From Candidatus Gastranaerophilales bacterium (GTDB lineage Bacteria; Cyanobacteriota; Vampirovibrionia; Gastranaerophilales; Gastranaerophilaceae), in contig CALVEI010000008.1 in the NCBI GenBank assembly GCA_944326515.1, positions 1 to 51,153 of the forward strand: 51,153 nucleotides of DNA, in the 5' to 3' direction. Positions 868-51,153 of this stretch are shown here, one piece after another. Position numbers and translations under genes: made by a program. Every line of letters starts with the position of its first letter. Position 1 is the first letter of the stretch. The notes beneath the pieces were generated by a model. That model saw only the letters and a program-made list of their open reading frames with translations, was not told the DNA's origin and made no database searches.

Positions 868-3357
868 TTATTTTACAACAATGTTAACAAGTCTGCCTGG
901 GACAACTATTGTTTTTACTATAGTTTTGCCTTCTATTGCTTGTTTAACTTTTTCGCTTTCTTTAGCAGCTTTTTCAAGGTCTTCTTTTGTTGATTCTGCA
1001 TCAACTTCTACCTTGTCTTTAACTTTGCCGTTTACTTGAACAACCAGTGTGATTGCAGAAGTTTTTGCTAATTTATCTTCGTATTTTGGCCATTCTGATT
1101 CGTGAATAGATCCTTGACCGCCAATTTGATGATAGATTTCTTCTGTCAAATGCACTGTAGTAGGTGCCATAAGTTTTAGCAATGTAACAAGTGCAAAGCT
1201 CAATACGTTTTTGTCTTCATCTGTGTATTGAGTTTTCTTTGCAGTGTAGTCATATATTGCGTTAACAAACTCACGATATTTTGAAATTACAGTGTTAAAC
1301 TGAAACTCGTTAGAAATATCTTGAGTAACACCTTTAATCGCAATATGTGTTGTTCTTACAAGGTCGTTGTTTTCTTTAGTTAAAGTTGCAACATCTTCAG
1401 GCAATTTGTAATCAAGGATTAAATTGTCTTGGTTAGATGCGAATAATCTCCAAACTCTGTTTAAGAATTTGTAACAGCCTTCAACACCTGCATCAGACCA
1501 GTCAAAATCTCTTGCCGGTGGTGAATCTGAAAGAATAAACAATCTTGCTGTGTCAGCTCCATAGTTTTCAAAGATTTCATCAGGGTCAACAGTGTTGCCT
1601 TTTGATTTTGACATTTTTGAACCGTCTTTTAATACCATACCTTGAGTTAAAAGGTTTTTAAACGGTTCATCAAAATCTACAAGACCCAAATCTTTTAACG
1701 CTTTAGTAAAGAATCTTGAATACAACAAGTGCAAAATAGCGTGTTCAATACCGCCAACGTATTGGTCAACAGGGAGCCATTTGTTAACAAGTTCTTTGCT
1801 AAACGGAGCATCTGCATTTTTTGCATCCGAGTATCTTAGATAATACCAGCTTGAGCAGATAAATGTATCCATTGTATCTGTTTCTCTTGTTGCTTTGCCA
1901 CCGCAGCAAGGGCAAGTTGTTTCTAAGAATGTTTTAGATGTCAAAATCGGTGATTTGCCTTTTACGCTAAAATCAACGTCTTCAGGAAGTCTTACAGGTA
2001 ACTGAGCTTCTGGAACAGGCTGCGGGCCGCATTTTTCGCAATAAACGATAGGAATAGGTGCGCCCCAGTATCTTTGTCTTGAGATTAACCAGTCACGTAA
2101 TCTGTATTGAGTTTTAAACTCACCAAAACCACCGTCAACAGCTTTTTGTGTGATAGCTTTTTTAGCTTCTTCGTTTTTCATTCCGTTAAATTCGTTAGAA
2201 TTTAAAAGAACACCCGGTTCTGTATAAGCTGCATCTTTGCAATCTGATGGATTTTCAGGGTTTTGGATAACAACCTTCATCGGCAGATTGTATTTTTTAG
2301 CAAAATCAAAATCTCTTTCATCGTGTGTAGGTACAGCCATAACAGCACCTGTTCCGTATTCTACAAGAGCATAATCTGCCGTCCATAATGGGAACTCTTC
2401 TCCTGTGAACGGATTGATACAGTGTGTACCAAGAGGAACACCCGTTTTTACACGTTCTGTAGAAAGTCTTTCGATTTCTGTCATTTTGCGAGCGTTAGCT
2501 CTGTATGCTTCAACAGCTTCTTTATTTTCCGGAGTTGTTAATTTTTCAATATCTTTGTATTCAGGTGCTACAACAAGGTAGGTAATACCGTGAACTGTGT
2601 CAGGTCTTGTTGTGTATACAGGAACTTCGAGTCCTTCGATTTCTTTAACTTTGAATCTGAAAATAGCACCTTCTGATTTACCAATCCAGTTTTTTTGCAT
2701 TATTTTTACGCTATCAGGCCAGCCTTCGAGCTTATCAATATCTTGCAAAAGTTGTTCTGCATAATCGGTGATTTTTAAGAACCATTGTGACAAATATTTT
2801 TTCTCAACAACGCTGTCGCATCTCCAGCATTTGCCGTCGATTACTTGTTCATTTGCAAGTACTGTTGCACACTGATCGCACCAGTTAACAGCTGCTTCTT
2901 TTTTATATGCAAGACCTTTTTTGTATAGTTGTAAAAACAGCCATTGAGTCCATTTGTAGTAGTCAGGTTTGCAAGTTGCAACTTCTCTGTCCCAGTCATA
3001 CATCAAACCGAGTTTTTTCAGTTGCATTTTCATATAAGAAATATTTTCATCAGTCCATTTTTCAGGGCTTTCTCCGTGTTGGATTGCTGCGTTTTCTGCA
3101 GGCAAGCCGAAGCTGTCCCATCCTATCGGGTGAAGCACATTAAAACCGTGCATTTTTTTGAAACGAGCAATTACATCAGTAATTGTGTAGTTTCTAACGT
3201 GTCCCATGTGTAATTTGCCTGACGGGTATGGGAACATTGATAACGCATAGTATTTTGGTTTGTCAGAATCATCGTAAGTTTTTCCAAAATTGTTATCTTC
3301 CCAAACTTTTTGCCAGTTTTTTTCAATTTCTTGAGGAAAATATTGTTCTTTTATCAC
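868..3357 (-). CDS. leuS: Leucyl-tRNA synthetase
   Basis: Class Ia aminoacyl-tRNA synthetase that charges tRNA-Leu with leucine in the cytoplasm. It has 829 residues, normal for the bacterial enzyme. The HIGH signature is HMGH at residues 50-53. The KMSKS loop is intact near residue 580. The CP1 editing domain carries TTRPDT near 249, and paired cysteines (CWRCD, CEKCG, CPCC) fit the zinc modules. Translation starts at GTG (3357) with AGGTGG 7 nt upstream. A good promoter lies at 3392-3419 and the terminator at 811-840 follows, so it looks monocistronic. Two unrelated small HTH modules flank it. Confidence 0.98.
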   Translation of the reverse strand: MIKEQYFPQEIEKNWQKVWEDNNFGKTYDDSDKPKYYALSMFPYPSGKLHMGHVRNYTITDVIARFKKMHGFNVLHPIGWDSFGLPAENAAIQHGESPEKWTDENISYMKMQLKKLGLMYDWDREVATCKPDYYKWTQWLFLQLYKKGLAYKKEAAVNWCDQCATVLANEQVIDGKCWRCDSVVEKKYLSQWFLKITDYAEQLLQDIDKLEGWPDSVKIMQKNWIGKSEGAIFRFKVKEIEGLEVPVYTTRPDTVHGITYLVVAPEYKDIEKLTTPENKEAVEAYRANARKMTEIERLSTERVKTGVPLGTHCINPFTGEEFPLWTADYALVEYGTGAVMAVPTHDERDFDFAKKYNLPMKVVIQNPENPSDCKDAAYTEPGVLLNSNEFNGMKNEEAKKAITQKAVDGGFGEFKTQYRLRDWLISRQRYWGAPIPIVYCEKCGPQPVPEAQLPVRLPEDVDFSVKGKSPILTSKTFLETTCPCCGGKATRETDTMDTFICSSWYYLRYSDAKNADAPFSKELVNKWLPVDQYVGGIEHAILHLLYSRFFTKALKDLGLVDFDEPFKNLLTQGMVLKDGSKMSKSKGNTVDPDEIFENYGADTARLFILSDSPPARDFDWSDAGVEGCYKFLNRVWRLFASNQDNLILDYKLPEDVATLTKENNDLVRTTHIAIKGVTQDISNEFQFNTVISKYREFVNAIYDYTAKKTQYTDEDKNVLSFALVTLLKLMAPTTVHLTEEIYHQIGGQGSIHESEWPKYEDKLAKTSAITLVVQVNGKVKDKVEVDAESTKEDLEKAAKESEKVKQAIEGKTIVKTIVVPGRLVNIVVK

Positions 3358-3391
3358 TGTTTATCCACCTATATAATTAACCTACTGTTTA

Positions 3392-3800: not shown

Positions 3801-4007
3801 ATGAGCTTAGGAAATGAAATAAAAAAACTTGCGATAGACAATGCTGTGACATTAACACAGTTAGCTGAATACATCGGTGAGAAAAAACAAAAACCGTACT
3901 CTGTGCAAAATCTTTCAACAAAATTAAAAAAAGGTACTGCTAATTTTAATGAATTGGAAATGATTCTTGATAAATTAGGATATTCTATCAAGTTTGAAAA
4001 GAAATAA
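3801..4007 (+). CDS. Small HTH (XRE-like) protein, paralog of the gene at 224
   Basis: A 68-residue HTH protein: IKKLAIDN, then VTLTQLAEYIGEKKQK, then NLSTKLKK, then ILDKLGYSIKFEKK. It shares the layout and many residues of the 73-residue protein at 224-445. There is no Shine-Dalgarno sequence; a TATAAT 8 nt upstream suggests a leaderless mRNA. A strong hairpin terminator follows directly. It is divergent from the small gene at 3477-3674 across a 44-bp palindrome, which is the obvious candidate operator. A DNA-binding role is inferred; no target is known. Confidence 0.7.
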   Translation: MSLGNEIKKLAIDNAVTLTQLAEYIGEKKQKPYSVQNLSTKLKKGTANFNELEMILDKLGYSIKFEKK

Positions 4008-4045
4008 AAAACAACCTCTTTATTTTGTTAAAGAGGCTGTTTTTT
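4008..4045. terminator. Bidirectional terminator between HTH gene and ctpA
   Basis: AAACAACCTCTTTA pairs with TAAAGAGGCTGTTT (one wobble) around a 6-nt loop, with A and T tracts on the two sides. It serves the plus HTH gene and the minus-strand protease gene. Confidence 0.85.
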
Positions 4046-50238: not shown

Positions 50239-50315
<77 letters not shown>

Positions 50316-50399: not shown

Positions 50400-50564
50400 T
50401 TATTTCAACAATAAATATACTTTTGTTTCAAAATAATTGGCGAGCATTTCAATTTTATCTAAAGTAATATTTATTTTACCTTTTTCAAGTTTCGAAATAT
50501 AAGAATTATCAACTCCCAAAACCAAAGATAATTCTTCTCTGCTGCTAATAGGTTTCTGGGACAT
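50400..50564 (-). pseudogene. Truncated XRE-type HTH protein (54 codons)
   Basis: The frame reads REELSLVLGVDNSYISKLEKGK followed by a helical stretch (ITLDKIEMLANYFE) and a hydrophobic end. That is the second half of a Cro/CI HTH domain, missing the usual first helix and its leader. There is no ribosome site before the ATG and an in-frame stop lies just upstream. I take it as a decayed or truncated regulator of phage or element type. A functional mini-protein cannot be excluded. Confidence 0.5.
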
Positions 50565-50648
50565 TGAGACGAAGAAAATTTAATAAAAAACCAAACAGAC
50601 AGCACGATTGAGGCTGTTTTTTAGTATTGAGATGTACCGGTCTTTTCT

Positions 50649-50774
50649 TGCGCTTAACTACTCATTTCTTGCACTCTTTTGCACTCCATTTGTAAATTTC
50701 TAAAACTACATTAGGCTAAAATCGCCTTGGTGTTTGAAGTTAAGTCCAGTGCAATAAAGTGCAAAAAAGTGCAA
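50649..50774. repeat. Two inverted arrays of an AGTGCAA decamer
   Basis: Right array: AGTGCAA at 50748, 50758 and 50768 on plus, exactly 10 bp apart. Left array: the complement TTGCACT at 50669 and 50679, with a variant TTGCGCT at 50649, also on 10- and 20-bp spacing. The arrays face outward around a 62-bp centre. One-turn phasing and symmetry indicate a protein-binding array. It lies ~330 bp after tRNA-Ile. From 50565 to 50829 no gene was seen apart from this array and a weak hairpin (ACAGC/GCTGT, 50599-50617). Confidence 0.75.
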
Positions 50775-50829
50775 TTTTATTTTGACTTGCAAATTGAGAT
50801 ACCCAAAATTATCAATGAGATTTGGATAT

Positions 50830-51135
50830 TTACGCAATTTCTAATTCATAACCTAATTCATGGAATATTTTTACAATGGTTGAAAATTTAGGTTCTTTTT
50901 CATTTTTAAATAAACTGTATAAATGAGTTCTGGACATCCCAATTTTCTTTGCAAAACCTGAAATTGAATTTCTTGATTTAATGGCAATTTCTAATGCACG
51001 ATAAAAAGAATTAAAATCACCATCTTCAATATAATCTTTTAAACTTGTATTTAGATATAATTTAATATCTTCATCTGTTTTTAAGTCGTTAACTATATAA
51101 TTTTCTAAATCTATTGTATGTTTTAATTCTTTCAT
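50830..51135 (-). CDS. HigA-type addiction-module antitoxin (XRE domain)
   Basis: A 101-residue protein. The N-terminal half (TDEDIKLYLNTSLKDYIEDGDFNSFYRALEIAIKS) and the HTH (ISGFAKKIGMSRTHLYSLFKNEKEPKFSTIVKIFHELGYELEI) match the short 'putative addiction module antidote' family, normally paired with a RelE/HigB-type RNase. In this family the toxin gene usually comes first. Here the antitoxin ATG overlaps a TAA (TAATG) of a frame coming from beyond the right edge, which would be the toxin's end. Confidence 0.88.
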   Translation of the reverse strand: MKELKHTIDLENYIVNDLKTDEDIKLYLNTSLKDYIEDGDFNSFYRALEIAIKSRNSISGFAKKIGMSRTHLYSLFKNEKEPKFSTIVKIFHELGYELEIA

Positions 51136-51152: not shown

Positions 51153-51153
51153 T

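Follow-up and report, generated by a model that had tools for sequence, protein, structure and literature searches.

The locus examined here raises the question of what kind of element carries clustered AGTGCAA heptamers downstream of a tRNA-Ile gene in a Gastranaerophilales (Melainabacteria) genome, and what the heptamers do there. The window analyzed is the whole of contig C8 (51153 bases) of this 119-contig genome; the sequence stops at 51153, and since the window spans the complete contig there is nothing beyond that position. The three AGTGCAA copies and two exact TTGCACT complements listed in the initial annotation are all present, and the claimed 62-bp centre near 50717 agrees with a spacer of exactly 62 bp centred on 50716.5 (Table 1). 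A further near copy exists (TTGCGCT), starting at 50648 and not at 50649; the 10-bp register that had been assigned to all copies holds for the AGTGCAA triplet and the TTGCACT pair, while the outer near copy lies 21 bp from the next site. The a and b heptamer sets are exact inverted repeats of each other. Taken singly, the heptamer is neither rare nor enriched in the window (14 copies versus 11 expected). Among 400 dinucleotide shuffles of the window sequence, none contained an inverted pair of 10-bp-spaced heptamer doublets, the criterion being a heptamer with at least three G/C and doublets within 150 bp. The arrangement is real and far from chance.

Table 1. Features of the left transposon end and its surroundings in the window (contig C8).
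Feature	Coordinates	Strand	Basis or remark
tRNA-Ile(GAT), inferred target; T-arm half GGTTCGAGTCCACTG is the candidate recognition sequence	50239..50315	+	ARAGORN, Rfam
Xre-type HTH gene without its 5' end (relic cargo from an older element), cut by the terminus	50400..50545	-	Intact homologue; homology break 50543/50546
Transposon left terminus TAATAGGTTTCTGGGACA	50546..50563	+	Homology boundary; equivalent termini in relatives with 5-bp duplications
Terminator-like hairpin ACAGC...GCTGT-T6 inside the left end	50599..50622	+	Sequence; kept in relatives
Heptamer a1, TTGCGCT (degenerate TTGCACT)	50648..50654	-	102 bp from terminus
Heptamer a2, TTGCACT	50669..50675	-	Sequence, comparison with related arrays
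Heptamer a3, TTGCACT	50679..50685	-	Sequence, comparison with related arrays
Spacer, 62 bp; length fixed (60-63 bp) among relatives, sequence interchangeable	50686..50747	.	Array comparison
Heptamer b1, AGTGCAA	50748..50754	+	Sequence, comparison with related arrays
Heptamer b2, AGTGCAA	50758..50764	+	Sequence, comparison with related arrays
Heptamer b3, AGTGCAA	50768..50774	+	Sequence, comparison with related arrays
Conserved inner flank of left end, AAATTGAGATACCC...AATTATCAATGAGATTTGG; cargo varies beyond	50775..50821	+	Homology comparison
Cargo antitoxin, HI1420-type addiction module family (HTH)	50830..51135	-	TIGR02684, E 1.4e-15

The genome-wide search that had been suggested was run: AGTGCAA-N3-AGTGCAA has matches in 29 of 99 related genomes and the reversed control pattern has none in the 99. 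When GTDB genomes were scanned for the inverted pattern, at least 117 loci were recovered. Among the matches listed, records titled with a taxon belong to Gastranaerophilales/Melainabacteria, except for single Variovorax, Alistipes and Clostridia records, which were taken for chance or mis-binning. One geometry is common to 113 distinct arrays and reads, from the terminus of the element inwards, terminus, ~102 bp, a1-14-a2-3-a3, 60-63 bp, b1-3-b2-3-b3. Heptamer identity per position is 92-107 out of 113. The spacer is 60-63 bp long in every one of these arrays, in a search that let it vary from 50 to 70 bp, and several unrelated spacer sequences are in use. The information content is ~1.8-1.96 bits in heptamer columns and 1.0 in spacer columns; b3 stands at 1.3 bits, a value partly due to misread ends.

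BLAST with the array region gave an abrupt homology boundary at window positions 50543-50546, at the start of TAATAGGTTTCTGGGACA, and similar termini in relatives read TATAGGTTTTCAGGACA and TATAGTTTAACAGGACA. The terminus lies 101-103 bp outside the array (measured to a1) in 78 of 96 cases with a readable terminus, so that the array is tied to insertion boundaries, a point that the initial annotation had singled out for checking. Most readable cases outside this range have the appearance of nested stubs or of repeat insertions; in front of a full left-end copy there are often short stubs of older termini. A terminal inverted repeat search with the left terminus as query did not recover the right end, which was obtained from the comparison of whole elements in relatives and reads ...CTTGTTCTGTATGTTAAATTACA. 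The two terminal sequences of relatives are related (left TATAGTTTAACA; right, inverted, TGTAATTTAACA), and the conserved inner flank of the left end resembles an AATTATC..TGAGATT segment in their right end. Exact 5-bp duplications were read for three insertions, none of them of the TAATAGG type to which the window element belongs: ACCAC/TATATG...TTACA/ACCAC at tRNA-Tyr, GCGAG/TATAGG...TTACA/GCGAG at tmRNA, and AAAAA for an element nested in an older left end at tRNA-Arg. No heptamer array was found in the four right ends examined. We consider it quite probable, from these comparisons, that the array is a subterminal control region in the left end of a Mu/Tn7-like DDE transposon.

In the relatives the operon consists of a transposase, a MuB/TniB ATPase, a protein with a winged helix and an integrase core-binding domain, and an HTH protein, followed by cargo. 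The Mu-type transposase (~600 aa) has an rve core and a Mu C-terminal domain (PF09299, 2.4e-14; phrog_310, 2.3e-82) and matches TnsB chains in the PDB at E 0.006; the AAA+ ATPase matches PF05621 (TniB, 1.2e-7) and phrog_296 (3.1e-40). The recognition-helix residues of the HTH protein (132 aa) do not vary within the array-bearing group, and homologues from groups that lack the array have other residues there; a structure search with this protein gave no useful match. TniQ (PF06527) had no match in 18 genomes, a search in which the control genomes had no match either, and neither TniQ nor TnsA was found among the operon genes examined (transposase, ATPase, core-binding-domain protein and HTH protein). 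The cargo of relatives includes type I and IV restriction systems, McrBC, and SocA-like and addiction antitoxins, and the cargo sampled (restriction, toxin-antitoxin and unknown genes in G023, G034 and G037) yielded no phage structural genes. Judged by the Mu/Tn7-type (MuA/TnsB) transposase, the ATPase and the 5-bp duplications, all of which occur in relatives, the elements form a Mu/Tn7-like transposon family, to all appearances a previously undescribed one, that resides in gut bacteria related to cyanobacteria and carries defence and toxin-antitoxin genes. A search of the open-access literature, with subscription papers and preprints outside its range, found no description of these elements.

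The window copy fits the suggestion of the initial annotation that an uncharacterised mobile element lies beside tRNA-Ile, with a transposon terminus at 50546 and the family itself present in relatives. The contig holds only the left 608 bp of this element. The truncated HTH gene that had been noticed next to the array owes its truncation to the transposon insertion: an intact homologue (69 aa, PF01381) occurs at L095:10691-10900, beside another copy of the same left end, and the window ORF 50400-50564 takes its first codons from the transposon end. From the homology break, the window element appears to have inserted into an HTH gene that belonged to an older relic. The adjoining addiction antitoxin, also pointed out previously, is a cargo gene, and in L086 and L088, too, the left end has an HI1420-type antitoxin next to it; the toxin side of the module is lost at the contig end. 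In the window genome we detected one left end and no transposase, selector, HTH partner or right end, so the copy may be defective or the rest of it unassembled. In relatives, too, contigs frequently end at this point, which makes missing assembly likely, not proven, for the window copy.

A tRNA or tmRNA gene was found within 700 bp of 69 arrays, and in every one of these cases the gene is upstream and shares the strand of the array. Eleven kinds of target are represented: tRNA-Ile (41), tRNA-Met (5), tmRNA (4), tRNA-Leu (4), tRNA-Arg (4), tRNA-Ser (3), tRNA-Gly (3), tRNA-Lys (2), and tRNA-Tyr, tRNA-Val and tRNA-Thr (1 each). In most cases the insertion is 34-139 bp downstream of the tRNA or tmRNA gene, and the left, transposase-proximal end faces that gene. 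The candidate for target selection is the core-binding-domain protein of the operon (186-205 aa), which matched integrase N-terminal domains in the PDB at 6e-9. Its AlphaFold model (mean pLDDT 82) combines a winged helix with a core-binding domain like that of lambda integrase and stops short of any catalytic domain; Foldseek gave E-values of only 0.006-0.4 and TM-scores by target length of 0.64-0.80. The protein is predicted from the PDB match and this model to be a tyrosine-recombinase-derived DNA-binding protein without a catalytic site. Core-binding-domain identity is 0.78 between elements with the same target versus 0.39 between those with different targets, the corresponding transposase values being 0.87 versus 0.84, and 0 of 5000 label permutations reached this difference in identity after regression on transposase identity; because related sequences are not independent, this target-tracking statistic is support and not proof. 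The N-terminal part is conserved across targets and the core-binding part varies (means 0.67 versus 0.46). One exception is L173, where an Ile-type selector is found beside tRNA-Leu, and a single selector type is common to the elements at tRNA-Leu and at tRNA-Thr. Taken together, the data suggest that the core-binding-domain protein is the probable target selector and that the transposon apparently finds its target with a piece of an old phage integrase.

Nine tandem elements contain a non-tRNA mimic of the T-arm, GGTYCCAGTCCACTG, which departs from the tRNA-Ile T-arm GGTTCGAGTCCACTG at one or two positions. The distance from the mimic to the following terminus is 51-79 bp, and such a placement is consistent with the T-arm being what is read. 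The mimic sits between the cargo and the next terminus (L088:1960-1990, L086 (rc) ~1070, and L099, L124, L152, L158 and L185). The mimic of the nine tandem elements probably has one common origin, and the insertion distances differ.

The best explanation at present is that the core-binding-domain protein would read the tRNA T-arm and recruit the ATPase, and that the six heptamers would be duplex sites for a DNA-binding protein encoded by the transposon; the candidate binders are the 132-aa HTH protein and the conserved winged helix of the selector, and the data choose neither. The bound protein would fold the left end around the 62-bp spacer and mark this end for transpososome assembly, a role comparable to that of the Mu enhancer/operator, and it may also repress the transposase where the array is directly upstream of that gene. 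The array keeps its distance to the terminus and not to the transposase gene, which favours a role at the end, as a protein-bound end or enhancer site; the terminus-array distance could also be conserved by descent rather than need. A counterpoint comes from 15 elements in which the array ends 56-61 bp upstream of the transposase start (an extrapolated start), directly upstream as an operator would be. If the array were an operator only, a transposon-encoded repressor would bind the heptamers cooperatively and loop the DNA to regulate the transposase promoter, the array having no direct function at the end, and both the inverted sites around a fixed spacer, which suit looping repressors, and the HTH protein encoded in the operon speak for this. 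We regard it as unlikely, given that in 26 elements 89-4475 bp, often with cargo genes, separate array and transposase, and these elements nevertheless keep their heptamers and the 102-bp interval between array and terminus. A special case of the preferred explanation, one that names the binder, treats the heptamers as arm-type sites of the integrase-derived selector, the winged helix binding the left end and the core-binding domain the tRNA gene, much as lambda Int bridges arm and core sites. The domain pair of the selector agrees with it, and a conserved N-terminal part (0.67 versus 0.46) is expected if one half reads an invariant array; however, this N-terminal domain could contact the ATPase or the transposase instead, and its predicted fold is a winged helix and not the lambda arm-binding fold, which leaves the special case possible but doubtful. 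Equally tentative is the wider picture of a TniQ-less, tRNA-homing Mu-like family in which the winged helix reads the AGTGCAA array, an exchangeable core-binding domain reads the T-arm, and one small protein thus bridges donor end and target, with the T-arm mimic of some elements letting later elements stack in tandem.

The inverted-repeat relation of the two heptamer sets would also suit a hairpin, in RNA or in single-stranded attC-like DNA, that is read by its structure. Among changed heptamer pairs 0 of 66 are compensated, which argues for protein recognition of duplex DNA; 1 of 107 copies has complementary inner 3-bp spacers, and in the window region only the tRNA reaches the Rfam gathering score. 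A hairpin is thus very improbable. We give even less credence to an integrase attachment site or an iteron origin, both of which the initial annotation had raised. The array does adjoin tRNA-Ile and does contain direct repeats one helical turn apart, but what relatives show is a DDE transposase with 5-bp duplications, in place of the core duplication and active integrase of an attachment site, and the core genes of what is a DDE transposon end include no replication initiator. The resemblance of AGTCCAGTGC to the tRNA sequence AGTCCACTGC, which had been mentioned with reserve, is not kept in related arrays, many of which have ...AAGCCCAGTGCAA or ...TTTTAGCGAGTGCAA, and is therefore chance. An integron-like cassette array with attC sites (tandem units 0.9-1.2 kb apart) was considered separately and ruled out by the transposase, the duplications and the lack of compensation noted above.

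In phage Mu, the operator/enhancer (O1-IHF-O2) consists of clustered short repeats one helical turn apart around a spacer near the left end; it is located about 1 kb from the terminus, and Mu insertion is near-random. The new elements share with Mu (MuA, MuB) the Mu-type transposase C-terminal domain, a MuB-like ATPase, 5-bp duplications, and helically spaced short repeats flanking a spacer near the left end. They differ from it in inserting at tRNA/tmRNA genes, in having the array ~100 bp from the terminus and a dedicated integrase-derived gene in the operon, and in the cargo examined, where no phage structural genes were noticed. CRISPR-associated transposons (type V-K, I-D) likewise have TnsB/TnsC relatives and insert asymmetrically at a set distance from tRNA genes, whereas the genes examined in the core operon described here include no Cas effector or TniQ and its target reading appears to be protein-based. 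Lambda integrase arm-type sites are also short and one helical turn apart, and the candidate binder here has a core-binding domain as well, but it lacks a catalytic domain and recombination falls to a DDE transposase. The closest published idea is TnsF of Tn6022, an inactivated tyrosine recombinase described as target selector by Faure et al. (PMC10293859); TnsF has 498 aa, with zinc fingers, two core-binding domains and a partial catalytic domain, and its target is comM (PMC10293859). Like this TnsF-bearing Tn7-like element, the new elements combine a TnsB/TnsC-type core, homing to a conserved chromosomal site, defence-type cargo and an inactivated tyrosine-recombinase protein as (here candidate) selector. 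Unlike Tn6022, they show no TnsA or TniQ and target tRNA/tmRNA genes rather than comM, and their selector (186-205 aa) has a winged helix and one core-binding domain.

If this interpretation is true, Mu-type machinery has gained gene-specific homing from the half of tyrosine integrases that reads DNA, and has done so by a route separate from TniQ and CRISPR. It would explain the restriction and toxin-antitoxin islands and the tandem transposon ends that flank many Gastranaerophilales tRNA/tmRNA genes, and with core-binding domains that are exchangeable and track the targeted tRNA, the evolution of new transposon targets would become directly testable. The AGTGCAA array provides a simple sequence tag to locate such elements.

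The array is absent from a more distant family of transposons, which has other repeats and transposases (~690 aa) that are 50-57% identical; the machinery itself thus does not require it. In this family two Mu-type transposase genes lie 3-4 kb apart (G070:C1 389072 and 392493, with equivalents in G106, G110 and G101), some copies encode a selector whose C-terminal remnant is longer (L226, minus strand, 261 aa), and several are downstream of tRNA-Ser or tRNA-Met. Triple 10-bp-spaced AGTGCAA also occurs in phage contigs L064, L067, L069-L071, L073, L074 and L076 in a conserved intergenic context, where it is probably a different operator. A phage origin of the array was rejected, the viral-contig triplets being unrelated in context; the conserved left-end core had 0 matches to viral sequences and the array region no match to phage DNA.

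Several minor observations concern the left ends and the tRNA-Ile locus. Some left ends contain short repeats of ~60-95 bp between or next to the heptamers (L078:2172-2268, L091:1305-1400, L095 (rc) 3975-4037), which lengthen the array and leave it mostly intact. Just upstream of the real tRNA-Ile there are tandem ~90-140-bp repeats (L088:509-700, L091:753-920, L094 (rc) 844-960, L097) that start with the first 18-26 bases of tRNA-Ile and have a hairpin-like sequence in place of the rest. In L094 (rc) a second tRNA-Ile 3' half at 3330-3380, ~2.3 kb downstream of the gene, suggests an extra integrase-type element between the tRNA and the transposon. In another species (L080, G006) a different element, perhaps a large serine-recombinase one, seems to lie at this position downstream of tRNA-Ile, and the locus may therefore be a general insertion hotspot.
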